The notes under the pieces are model-generated. The model was not told the origin of the DNA, did no database searches, and was given only the letters and a program-made list of their open reading frames with translations. Made by a program: the position numbers and the translations under genes. Of a DNA stretch of 64,000 bases, positions 15,977 through 22,790 are shown one piece after another. Numbering within the stretch: position 1 is the first letter of the stretch; every line of letters starts with the position of its first letter. Origin of the DNA: a virus; the IMG/VR virus record IMGVR_UViG_3300046171_000298, positions 1 to 64,000 of that record; one strand, 5' to 3'.

Positions 15977-17772
15977 TATTGAAAGCACTGGGCTACTTCG
16001 TAGAGGCTCAAAAATCCACTGTATTGTTGCTCGTGATTTGAATGATCAATCTGAGCCACTTGTCTTTGACCATAAGCCAGATCGGTCAATTGACATGGGC
16101 ATCGAGCAGCTTAAACGCGCTAATGTATTAGTTGGCCACAACATAATTGGTTACGATATTCCACTTATCCGTGAATCATATGAATTTGAATTCGAAGGAG
16201 ACGTACTTGATACTCTTGTACTTAGTCGGTTATTTTATCCTCATATCTTGGATCGCGATTACGAACGGCGTCCCGAAGGAATGCCTCAAAAACTATACGG
16301 ACGTCACAGTCTCGAAGCATGGGGCTATCGATTAAAGTGTTTTAAGGGTGACTACGGCAAGCAATCAACAGCTTGGGATACATATACTCCTGAGATGCTT
16401 GATTATTGCATTCAAGACACGATGGTTACAGTCAGACTATACGAACTCATGATGCGGAGGATGGAAGACCATGCTTAATTGTGTACAGCTTGAGATGCGC
16501 ATGGCTCAACTGATGGCTCAACAAGAGTCATCTGGGTTCAGGTTTGACATGCTCGCTGCAGAACGGGTTCGTTCTGATTTGAATCAAAAAGTACTAGACA
16601 TTCAACAGAAAATTTCTGAGCGATACAAGTATGTACCTGGCAAGGTGTTTACTCCAAAACGTACTGATAAAAAGACAGGCTATGTAGCTGGAGCGCCGAT
16701 GACTAAGTTGGTTGAATTCAACCCAACTAGCCGTCAGCATATTGCATGGGTTCTTCAGAATCATCGGGGTGCTCGATTCACAAAGCTTACAGATACTGGA
16801 AAACCTAAAGTTGATGAAGCGACTCTTTCTGAAATGAGAGACACAGCTCAGCAGCAAAAAAATATACGCTTGTTTGAAGAGTGTGACATGTTCATTACTC
16901 TGCTCACATTGCAAAAGCATATGGGCCAGTTATCAGAAGGCTCTAACTCTTGGTTCAATACCATTGAAGAGGACAACTGTATTCACCACAGCTGTTCACT
17001 TGCAACGCAAACTGGACGTAACGCGCATCGTGGCCCTAATCTTGGCCAGGTTGTAAGTGCTCCTTGGGCTCGTGAGCTCTTTATACCTCATCCTGGTATG
17101 ACAATGGTAGGAGCTGACCTTGAAGGTCTAGAGCTTCGCTGTTTAGGGCATTACCTGCACAGGTTTGACGAAGGTGACTTTGCCAAGGTTGTTATTGAAG
17201 GTGATATTCATCAGCAAAATGCTGACCGGGTAGGCTGCAAACGCCATGAAGTCAAGACAATTTGCTATGCGTTTATCTATGGAGCTGGTGACCTTAAGTT
17301 AGGCCACAGCTTGCATCCTGAGTACTCTGATGCACAGAAAAAAGCGTTGGGTCAAGAGCTTCGCCGTAAGTTCCTTGATGCTATTCCAGGTCTTGAACCA
17401 CTGATTGATGCAGTCAAGCAAAAGGTTCGTTCTAAAGGAATGATCAAAGGATTAGACGGTCGTCCTATCTTCTGTAAGGCAGAACACGCCTCGCTCAACT
17501 ATCTCCTGCAGTCAGCCGGAGCGATTTTGAGTAAAAGGTGGTGTATAATTGGTCAGCAATTAATTGATGCTGCAGGTCTTACTTATAATAGAGACTACAC
17601 ACGTTGCGCTTACGTCCACGATGAACAGCAGTTTTCTGTTATTCCTCAAGAAGCCGAAAGAGTTGCAAGTATTTTAGTAGAAGCTGCTCCACTTGCTGGT
17701 ACTTACTATGACTTTAAAGTACCAATTACAGCAGCATCAGCTATAGGTGAGAACTGGGCCAAAACGCATTAA
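15954..17772 (+). CDS. Family A (T7-like) DNA polymerase with 3'-5' exonuclease, split by one frameshift
   Basis: The first part has exonuclease motifs DIESTGL near residue 8, GHNIIGYDIP, and YCIQDTMVT. It ends at TAA 16476-16478. An overlapping frame from 16471 carries the polymerase: motif A GADLEGLELRCLGHYL, motif B KTICYAFIYGAGD, and motif C YVHDE. Removing one T at GCTTAAT fuses them as ..DHANCVQLE.. into about 605 aa, close to a full T7-type enzyme without a separate thioredoxin loop. The split could be real two-gene organisation, but the shift matches the other single-base breaks. Confidence 0.9.
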
Positions 17773-17968: not shown

Positions 17969-18010
17969 GTGTTCGCCGTGAACTGGTAACAATAGTTACA
18001 ATAATAGTAA

Positions 18011-18082
18011 ACGTTGATCCTCATTGAGGACGCAAGTACCACAGCCAGTGGGAAGCAACGGGCAATTAAACCCCTACTGGAT
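18011..18082 (+). promoter_or_regulatory. Glutamine-riboswitch-like RNA (Downstream-peptide/glnA type)
   Basis: The RNA folds as a three-way junction. P1 pairs CGTTG (18012-18016) with CAACG (18056-18060). P2 is TCCTC-ATT-GAGGA. P3 is CCAC-AGCCA-GTGG. The junction strands CGCAAGTA and GAAG match the conserved core of the glnA/Downstream-peptide RNAs. ACTGG at 18076-18080 can pair with CCAGT of the P3 loop as a pseudoknot, as in the Downstream-peptide class. It ends 7 bases before the ATG of a short protein, the usual target. Binding of glutamine is known for the class and inferred here. Confidence 0.72.
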
Positions 18083-18088
18083 AGACCA

Positions 18089-18274
18089 ATGACTGAACTG
18101 CAAGCTCGTGCAATTGTTAATGCACGCAATGACTTTGAGCGTGCTCGTAAAGAGCTCAATCAAATCAAACTGAGCGAAACCCGTTATCGCGGAAATCTGT
18201 ATACAACAGACGCTCGTATGCCACAAAATGTACATGGTACATTTACTTATCGTGGTCAAACCTACGAAAAGTGA
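18089..18274 (+). CDS. Short riboswitch-controlled protein with DUF4278-like end
   Basis: 61 residues. A helical ARNDFERARKELNQIKL segment is followed by a C-terminal FTYRGQTYEK, which resembles the YRGxxY core of DUF4278, a short cyanobacterial domain. It lies directly under the glutamine-riboswitch-like leader, the standard location of downstream peptides. In the host such peptides are linked to nitrogen regulation; here the phage may tune its own or the host's glutamine metabolism. The ATG at 18089 is chosen because earlier in-frame codons lie inside the RNA. Confidence 0.6.
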   Translation: MTELQARAIVNARNDFERARKELNQIKLSETRYRGNLYTTDARMPQNVHGTFTYRGQTYEK

Positions 18275-18518: not shown

Positions 18519-18546
18519 GACCCACTAACGTGGGTCTATTTTTTTG
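18519..18546 (+). terminator. Rho-independent terminator after the riboswitch operon
   Basis: A 7-bp stem GACCCAC/GTGGGTC with loop TAAC is followed by TATTTTTTT. Confidence 0.85.
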
Positions 18547-18586: not shown

Positions 18587-19096
18587 ATGGAACACATTAA
18601 CAAGTTGTTAATTCATTACTCTGTTTTACTCATTGATTTACTTTATAAAGACAGGCATTTTCAAAGATTTTGGGTACTAGAAACCATTGCCCGAGTTCCT
18701 TACTTTTCTTTTCTAAGTGTTCTGCATTTTAAAGAATCATTAGGATTGCGAGGAAACAATCATCATTTTCTAATGAAAGAACATTTTGCTCAATCAATTA
18801 ATGAAACAGAGCATTTGGAAATTATGGAAAAACGTGGCGGTAACGCATATTGGATTGATCGGTTTTTTGCATATCATTTAGTATTACTTTATTACTGGTT
18901 AATGGTCATCTATTATCTAGTTGCCCCATCATATGCTTATGATCTTAATGTATGTATTGAGCAACATGCTGTTCATACATATCAGACTTATTTAGACAAT
19001 GTAGATTCTAAAGATTCACAGATATTTCAAATACTTAGTGATGAACAAAAGCATGTATACGAGCTAATATCTGCTCAATCATTAATTCTTTTATAA
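18587..19096 (+). CDS. Plastoquinol terminal oxidase (PTOX, alternative-oxidase family)
   Basis: All diiron ligand motifs of the family are visible: LET with E32, NETEHL with E73 and H76, IEQHAVHTY with E125, and SDEQKH with E153 and H156. A hydrophobic stretch near residues 95-112 fits interfacial membrane binding. PTOX transfers electrons from plastoquinol to O2. In infected cyanobacteria it can bleed electrons between the photosystems and save ATP-generating proton flow. The 169-aa length is typical of cyanophage versions. It stands alone between two terminators. Confidence 0.88.
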   Translation: MEHINKLLIHYSVLLIDLLYKDRHFQRFWVLETIARVPYFSFLSVLHFKESLGLRGNNHHFLMKEHFAQSINETEHLEIMEKRGGNAYWIDRFFAYHLVLLYYWLMVIYYLVAPSYAYDLNVCIEQHAVHTYQTYLDNVDSKDSQIFQILSDEQKHVYELISAQSLILL

Positions 19097-19194: not shown

Positions 19195-19575
19195 ATGTCT
19201 ATCATTTCAAAAATTGCACTTTTTGGTGCACTGTCTACTGTTGCAGTATCTCCTGCAATCGCTGGTCCATTTGCAAACATCGAAAGCAATACATCTTATT
19301 TTGGTGATGATCGCTTAAATACAACTACAGATTTGCATCTTGGCTATGAGCATGCTATCAACGATAAAGTAACTGTCTCTATTCAAGCAGGCCCTTCTTT
19401 TGTTAATATGCCTGATGCTGATTACGAGCATGAAATCTCAGGTAAAGTTGCAATCTCAGCTGATGTAAGCGAAAGCCTCAACATTTATGGTGAAGCATAC
19501 GCAATCACGGTTCAACGTGACATTGAAGCAGACTTTCCAATTGATTTGAAAGTAGGCGCACGATATTCCTTCTGA
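19195..19575 (+). CDS. Exported small beta-rich protein, outer-membrane-like
   Basis: A signal peptide with a Lys, a hydrophobic core and an SPAIAG cleavage region (after about residue 23) precedes repeated amphipathic beta strands. The protein ends in KVGARYSF, an outer-membrane-type terminal Phe. The length of 126 aa matches small exported proteins of unknown function in cyanomyoviruses. It probably modifies the host envelope. It is followed by a strong terminator that closes the + strand block. Confidence 0.65.
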   Translation: MSIISKIALFGALSTVAVSPAIAGPFANIESNTSYFGDDRLNTTTDLHLGYEHAINDKVTVSIQAGPSFVNMPDADYEHEISGKVAISADVSESLNIYGEAYAITVQRDIEADFPIDLKVGARYSF

Positions 19576-21785: not shown

Positions 21786-21837
21786 GATAATATTTTGTCT
21801 CTACTTTAATTTTATCAAATCTATTTAGAATAAAAAT

Positions 21838-21924
21838 GGAGAGGTGGTCGAGTGGTTTATGGCTCCAGTCTTGAAAACTGGCGTGTCTTCACGGGCACCA
21901 GGGGTTCGAATCCCCTCCTCTCCG
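21838..21924 (+). tRNA. tRNA-Ser (anticodon TGA)
   Basis: A complete class II tRNA. The acceptor stem is GGAGAGG/CCTCTCC with discriminator G. The anticodon arm is CAGT-CTTGAAA-ACTG, anticodon TGA. It has a long variable arm and a T arm AGGGG-TTCGAAT-CCCCT. No CCA is encoded. It starts right after an AT-rich gap and ends 11 bases before the convergent integrase stop. Confidence 0.95.
21889..21924 (+). other. Candidate attP core in the tRNA-Ser 3' half
   Basis: Tyrosine integrases commonly use the T-arm/acceptor part of a tRNA gene as attachment core, and int lies immediately beside it. The location is inferred from the arrangement; the core borders cannot be read without the host sequence. 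Confidence 0.4.
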
Positions 21925-21935
21925 TGGATGCGCGA

Positions 21936-22748
21936 CTAACGTCTAATCTTTTTTATTGCTTCAAATTTATCTTCAATGGTCCAAGTGCCATAACGAGCTG
22001 TCATACCTGCAACTTTATGACCCATGAGTTTAGAAATCATAGAATCTTGCAAATTAGCGCTCCTTGCTCTAGTGCTCCAGTTGTGACGAAGGCTGTGAGC
22101 TGCTTCGCCTTGGGGTAGCCCCATAACGTCATTAAATTTTTCAGACCAATTTTTGCCTGGGTAACGAGTGAAGTCAGTTGTTAGCATCCCCACCCACGGA
22201 TAAAACTCAGGATGGATGGGCACTTGCCGTGTGGCCAGAGGCTTTACAAGCCTGTTGTCATTATTTTTAATTTGAAAGTAAGGGATTTCACTACGGAAAA
22301 CAATTTCTCTATTTAACAAACCAGCGATTTCACCAATTCTAAATCCGTGATACCAGATCGCAAGAAAAATAGGATCTTGATGATAGGGTTTATAAAAATC
22401 AAACGGACGCACAGGATATTCTTTACCCATGCGCTCCGCTTGCATGTCTCTGTTGACTTTAATTTTTTTACTGGAGTGTAGCCAATAGTTTTGACCATCA
22501 ACGATGTCTTCTTCATTTGCCATATTCCAGATACCTGAGAGCAAGCTGAGGCGGCGTCTGAGGGTCTCAGGAGAGCATTTGCCAATTGGCTTGAGCTGTG
22601 ACTTCCAATAGCGTGTAACAAACATTTTGTCTGTCATTGACACGTCAACATCAGCGATAGGCCGAATAGCCTGCCACCAACATTTGTATGTGCTGTCACG
22701 AATGTCCTGCGTTTCGCGGACACATTCCATCAGTTCTTTGTAATTCAT
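21936..22748 (-). CDS. int: Tyrosine recombinase/integrase
   Basis: Catalytic residues are in order: R137 in YHGFRIGEIAGL, K161, H218xxR221 in HSLRHNW, H244 in LMGHKV, and Y253 in ARYGTW. The N-terminal half fits a SAM-like core-binding domain. It would catalyse site-specific insertion into the host tRNA-Ser gene. The ATG at 22748 is preferred to an upstream TTG. A terminator lies just before it, so it has its own promoter or low read-through expression. Confidence 0.9.
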   Translation of the reverse strand: MNYKELMECVRETQDIRDSTYKCWWQAIRPIADVDVSMTDKMFVTRYWKSQLKPIGKCSPETLRRRLSLLSGIWNMANEEDIVDGQNYWLHSSKKIKVNRDMQAERMGKEYPVRPFDFYKPYHQDPIFLAIWYHGFRIGEIAGLLNREIVFRSEIPYFQIKNNDNRLVKPLATRQVPIHPEFYPWVGMLTTDFTRYPGKNWSEKFNDVMGLPQGEAAHSLRHNWSTRARSANLQDSMISKLMGHKVAGMTARYGTWTIEDKFEAIKKIRR

Positions 22749-22790
22749 GTGATCTTTCTGGGTTATAAGCAACGCCAATCAATGTCTAAC

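Follow-up and report, generated by a model that had tools for sequence, protein, structure and literature searches.

Our analysis of a 64,000-base stretch of DNA (hereafter the window; bases 1–64,000 of a 67,208-base IMG/VR virus record) identified a leader of the type I glutamine-riboswitch class, which is preceded by an NtcA-type promoter box and followed by a gene for a small DUF4278-like peptide. We estimate a probability of roughly two in three that these elements form a translational switch turned on by glutamine, under a promoter that NtcA can repress, that is, a two-input nitrogen-sufficiency switch carried by a phage, and the phage probably makes the peptide only in a nitrogen-rich infected cell. 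The genes around the locus are those of a marine cyanophage, including DNA polymerase A, plastoquinol terminal oxidase (PTOX), an outer-membrane-like protein, and an integrase; no near DNA relatives of the window were found among deposited phages. The features of the locus are listed in the table.

Features of the riboswitch locus (window coordinates)
Feature	Position	Strand	Basis or remark
DNA polymerase A (polA)	16471–17772		
Conserved inverted repeat GTTCGCCGTGAAC, −35 region	17971–17983	+	
NtcA-type box GTAACAATAGTTAC (GTA-N8-TAC)	17986–17999	+	Position enrichment in relatives; overlaps −10
Predicted −10 element TACAAT	17997–18002	+	TANNNT-like element conserved at this distance in relatives
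Type I (glnA-class) glutamine riboswitch aptamer	18010–18064	+	RF01739, covariation
P1, CGUUG/CAACG	18012–18016/18056–18060	+	
P2	18018–18022/18026–18030	+	
Junction strand CGCAAGUA	18031–18038	+	
P3, CCAC/GUGG	18039–18042/18048–18051	+	
Junction strand GAAG	18052–18055	+	
Long-range pair adjoining P1	C18033:G18061	+	Covaries C-G/G-C in relatives
Proposed switching helix, 5' strand CCAGUGGG	18045–18052	+	Overlaps P3 3' strand and first G of GAAG
Proposed switching helix, 3' strand CCUACUGG	18073–18080	+	Extends into RBS (GGA, 18079–18081)
DUF4278-like peptide, 61 aa, ATG at 18089	18089–18274	+	phrog_545, E 2.9e-9
Second small ORF of the unit, 63 aa	18322–18513	+	phrog_6192; YRG motif (CYRGIHY)
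Intrinsic terminator, 7-bp stem then T-run	18519–18545	+	−12.5 kcal/mol, z −5.4
Plastoquinol terminal oxidase (PTOX)	18587–19096		
Cyanophage outer-membrane-like protein	19195–19575		

The leader matches RF01739 (Glutamine, type I, glnA class) at 42.0 bits, above the gathering threshold of 35 (E = 9e-6 in a search of the whole 64-kb window with 4,227 families), and this is the sole match to the family in the 67,208-base record. P1, P2, and P3, together with the AAGUA and GAAG junction strands, are all present in the sequence and in the covariance-model alignment, and the inner pair of P1 changes in a compensatory manner across viral relatives (C-G, U-A, and, in the window, G-C). The three-way junction strands and GAAG that had been proposed from the letters lie, like the leader and the peptide, at the positions given there, and are borne out by score, sequence, and covariation. 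The accompanying assignment to the Downstream-peptide class is rejected on score: of the two covariance models named for the check, glnA gave a hit, whereas RF01704 (Glutamine-II, formerly Downstream-peptide) scored 20.7 bits, under its gathering threshold of 33. Single-sequence folding does not favor the three-way junction (minimum free energy [MFE] −18.3, z −1.0), so that support for the aptamer is comparative. On these grounds, the leader is a real element of the type I glutamine-riboswitch class and would be expected to bind glutamine.

A pattern scan of viral contigs gave at least 120 matches (L001–L120 are those listed), and the phage aptamers fall into two classes, A (GACGC...AACGG), which includes the window, and B (GACGG...AACGC). 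Among unique aptamers from a scan fixing neither base of the long-range pair, this pair is G-C in 73 cases, C-G in 14, and G-T in 1. In the Glutamine-II crystal structure this pair is C19:G41, and type I has a counterpart of it (PMC6698751). Class A, in combining type I junction strands with a C:G pair, therefore carries the type II form of the pair in a type I fold. The class-A pattern is found in 108 viral contigs. Its matches in GTDB genomes are mostly viral-looking contigs, chance matches, or rearranged bacterial RNAs, and just 1 of 400 picocyanobacterial genomes has a match, which lies ahead of a YRG peptide and has an NtcA-type box of its own (L402). Class-B aptamers among the matches listed precede varied, very short ORFs (approximately 30–65 aa), many without YRG, and most of these ORFs have a hairpin sequestering the Shine–Dalgarno (SD) sequence ahead of them. 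A further set of RNAs (L227, L229, L231, L233, L235, L240, L243, L245, L248, L253, L257, and L259), from marine Gammaproteobacteria, Nitrospina, and Dehalococcoidia, resembles circularly permuted type I aptamers, with P2 open and P1 capped by a short loop; their Rfam scores are only 23.6–24.9 bits, below gathering, and several lie immediately 5' of glutamine synthetase (PF00120/PF03951) or TonB-receptor-like genes.

The sequence-only reading had also proposed an ACTGG pseudoknot as part of the Downstream-peptide layout. The complementarity exists and is more extensive than proposed, at 8 bp, with the topology of an H-type pseudoknot relative to P1, but it is not a general layout element: ACTGGAG also stands ahead of the start codon where a relative's P3 loop is unable to pair with it, and a loop–RBS pseudoknot was ruled out as a feature of the class because ACTGG is a common RBS variant regardless of the P3 loop. 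A better reading places ACTGG in one strand of the CCAGUGGG/CCUACUGG helix, which contains one G-U pair (shuffle P 0.003–0.027), encloses CAACG, is mutually exclusive with P3, covers the RBS, and appears in MFE folds once P1 is unavailable. Both strands are invariant in the five members of the window clade (L019, L177, L197, L203, and the window), in which adjacent leader bases vary and polA proteins are 76–99% identical to that of the window; with five members and three distinct leaders, the helix is conserved, and covariation is not shown. Computed RBS accessibility with P1 forced and with the P1 5' strand blocked, respectively, is 0.69 and 0.50 in the window, 0.71 and 0.62 in L019, and 0.64 and 0.51 in L203.

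Most class-A leaders, as well as class B, hold the SD inside a hairpin that begins directly after P1. In class A, the pairing of this hairpin exceeds that with shuffled partners in every one of 100 shuffles (8.42 versus 7.54, sd 0.09), and forcing P1 has no effect on RBS accessibility in the ordinary leaders of the class (0.41 versus 0.41). This P4 hairpin was ruled out as the platform of the window, where only GG/CC is left of it; the window clade as a whole lacks it. The sister pair L221 and L225 has a different anti-aptamer stem, GAAGC/GCUUU plus GGAA/UUCC. Of 97 leaders from T4-like cyanophages, 96 pair the junction strand CT(A/G)AAG with bases immediately 5' of the SD and one leaves it unpaired, and this helix covaries (CTAAAG/CTTTAG in 37, CTGAAG/CTTCAG in 26), with CTTTAG as the sole partner of CTAAAG (Fisher p = 1e-13, although the sequences are related and the counts are not independent events). 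The RBS is thus tied to the aptamer's own junction in three lineages, which fits an ON switch. The T4-like loci (L216–L220 and L260–L379; e.g., L216:2215–2480) contain tandem glutamine-type elements, and the P2 loop of the second aptamer holds an entire ORF of 51–66 aa, which starts at an AUG within the P2 5' strand (CCCAUG) and stops at a UGA within the aptamer core; this ORF occurs in 89 of the 97 unique T4-like elements, the other 8 having an ordinary P2 hairpin.

Upstream of the aptamer, positions 17986–17999 are an NtcA-type box at a conserved promoter position, where NtcA would be expected to repress. GTA-N8-TAC, the NtcA consensus for marine cyanobacteria (PMC3037559), lies −23 to −28 from the start of P1 in 36 of the 84 unique class-A leaders from phages, against 1.6 expected from the same contigs, and is similarly placed in host leaders (17 of 20 picocyanobacterial and 15 of 19 other cyanobacterial); as the leaders compared are related, these tallies do not represent independent events. 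The motif by itself is common, with 16 occurrences anywhere in the window versus 10 expected, so that its position is the telling feature. The proposed phage-carried nitrogen control draws independent support from the box. No TTGACA-type (sigma-70) −35 box was found to accompany the predicted −10 element. The exact inverted repeat GTTCGCCGTGAAC occurs once in the window, and its relaxed form, GTTCGCC(G/A)TGAAC, sits between −39 and −43 in 28 of the 83 phage leaders; in 1.87 Mb of background, this form turns up 9 times. A similar repeat is found in all 3 picocyanobacterial host leaders without an NtcA-type box, and repeats of this type are common to phage and host glutamine-riboswitch promoters.

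The 61-aa peptide is DUF4278-like at the family level, as had been proposed. Taken alone, it scores 19.2 bits against DUF4278 (PF14105; E = 0.0016), under the Pfam cut-off of 25.3; 27 of the 34 family members match PF14105 with E values no higher than 1 (the lowest being 1.3e-5), and hhalign aligns the family profile with host DUF4278 proteins at a probability of 92.7% (E = 4.3e-7). YRG is invariant in the family alignment and present in all 185 unique peptides downstream of class-A and T4-like elements. The AlphaFold2 model, built from an input without three rows from deposited phages, has an N-terminal helix (residues 3–29) and two YRG beta hairpins (pLDDT 80.8, pTM 0.40); searches by sequence and by fold found no relatives of solved structure (best E by fold 7.4). 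The DUF4278 family is linked to glutamine synthetase control. An IF7-like helix seemed plausible by eye and was ruled out by hhalign, with a probability of 0.2% against four IF17 C-terminal modules; without an IF7 module, the label of glutamine synthetase inactivating factor is unjustified.

The peptide gene and the second YRG ORF, which is found at the same location in L177, L197, and L203, make up a two-gene unit closed by the strong terminator, and the PTOX gene lies outside it. In L177, a relative otherwise almost identical, the PTOX position is occupied by another ORF (L177:11570–12300; approximately 230 aa) that contains the kinase-like motif GAGAYGVVY, which indicates a variable cargo slot. 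Farther downstream (21837–22778), the window contains a complete tRNA-Ser(TGA) gene with the integrase alongside on the opposite strand, a pair that suggests a possible integration site.

In the mechanism that we favor, high 2-oxoglutarate in a nitrogen-starved cell would place host NtcA on GTAACAATAGTTAC across the −10 element and repress transcription, and in a nitrogen-rich cell NtcA would depart. The transcript would start at the aptamer; without glutamine, CCAGUGGG would pair with CCUACUGG at the RBS, dissolving P3 and hiding the RBS, whereas bound glutamine would lock P1, P3, and the junction, free the RBS, and turn translation on. The output would be the small DUF4278 peptide, then the second YRG peptide, up to the terminator. 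Host DUF4278/IF17 genes are wired in this way, so the target of the peptide probably lies in nitrogen assimilation by the host.

Type I and type II glutamine riboswitches have both been reported as ON switches in hosts (PMC6316151, PMC6698751). Because the CCAGUGGG/CCUACUGG helix is able to form alongside P1 as a Glutamine-II-like H-type pseudoknot, the leader could be an OFF switch in which glutamine stabilizes the pseudoknot (P1 CGUUG/CAACG plus the helix) and conceals the RBS under plentiful nitrogen. In favor of this, the strands follow one another as in Glutamine-II, the C:G long-range pair belongs to the Glutamine-II type (PMC6698751), and the AAG linker ahead of CAACG agrees with the A-N-G found in Glutamine-II sequences. 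We nevertheless judge this direction quite improbable, considering the sub-threshold RF01704 score, the 12 nt that separate CAACG from the 3' strand (about 3 nt in the Glutamine-II crystal RNA), the reported ON direction of both host classes (PMC6316151), and the NtcA-type box over the −10 element, which points to ON under nitrogen excess. We also consider it improbable, if slightly less so, that the leader is bistable, alternating between the type I three-way junction with P3 formed and a type-II-like H-type pseudoknot with CCAGUGGG/CCUACUGG around CAACG, the two sharing a core with the type II C:G long-range pair. Were this true, the phage leaders would represent present-day intermediates linking the two classes, with switching accomplished by the architecture itself.

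GTA-N8-TAC may be an activating NtcA site, as proposed for cyanophage boxes (PMC3037559), or simply part of a conserved phage promoter, leaving the transcriptional input absent or reversed; its absence from 48 of 83 class-A leaders and the location of most T4-like boxes at −53 to −61 fit such a role. We regard this as unlikely, albeit a serious contender, given that in the window clade TAC makes up the opening half of the −10 element, a polymerase-blocking position, that host leaders have the box at about the same position, and that gif genes are described as repressed by NtcA in hosts (PMC6316151, PMC6698751). A further possibility, in which the aptamer is left over from a host and no longer part of a functioning switch and the peptide is made constitutively, seems very unlikely: the window lacks the usual class-A SD-sequestering hairpin, its SD is weak (GGA only), and its folding z is only −1.0, yet the aptamer and both helix strands are retained in phages with polA only 76–77% identical to that of the window, P1 shows compensatory change, and the spacing of the box is fixed.

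Glutamine riboswitches have been noted previously in cyanophages (PMC9964418, PMC9602691), as have NtcA sites (PMC3037559), and the tie between glutamine riboswitches and DUF4278 is known in hosts (PMC6316151); in the literature searched, no paper joined riboswitch, DUF4278, and NtcA site in a phage or dealt with the class-A aptamer or the CCAGUGGG/CCUACUGG helix. New here are the fixed-position NtcA-type box before phage aptamers, matching that of hosts, the reading of ACTGG as a helix strand, with the analogous covarying helix of T4-like relatives, and the type-II-like pair of class A. The riboswitches of marine phages had been annotated with their purpose left open; a single control cassette common to phage and host (NtcA-type box, glutamine aptamer, and YRG peptide) points to phages taking over the host nitrogen-excess response via the host signals 2-oxoglutarate and glutamine. 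The role of DUF4278 peptides without an IF7 module, long an open question, becomes testable. The locus also provides a concrete proposed switching helix that can be mutated, as well as a variant aptamer class, specific to phages, that connects types I and II.

Among known systems, the locus resembles the type I (RF01739) leaders of cyanobacterial gifB/DUF4278 genes in its three-way junction, AAGUA and GAAG strands, DUF4278 product, and NtcA-type box just 5' of the aptamer. It differs from them in being phage-borne, in its long-range pair (C:G rather than G:C), in pairing its RBS with the P3 strand, and in a product that lacks the IF7 module. With the type II (RF01704) systems of marine picocyanobacteria, such as PMM1846 (PMC6316151), it shares a small YRG peptide, an upstream NtcA-type box, the C:G long-range pair, and a possible H-type pseudoknot, whereas its score below gathering, P3 hairpin, type I junction strands, and long linker set it apart. 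Glutamine riboswitches noted in the marine phages S-CREM1 (PMC9964418) and Melnitz, Mosig, and AG-345-P14 (PMC9004378), that of Melnitz being placed with ssrA (PMC9004378), are likewise phage-borne glnA-class aptamers; relative to the available portions of those accounts, the DUF4278 link, the NtcA-type box, and the switching helix are described here only.
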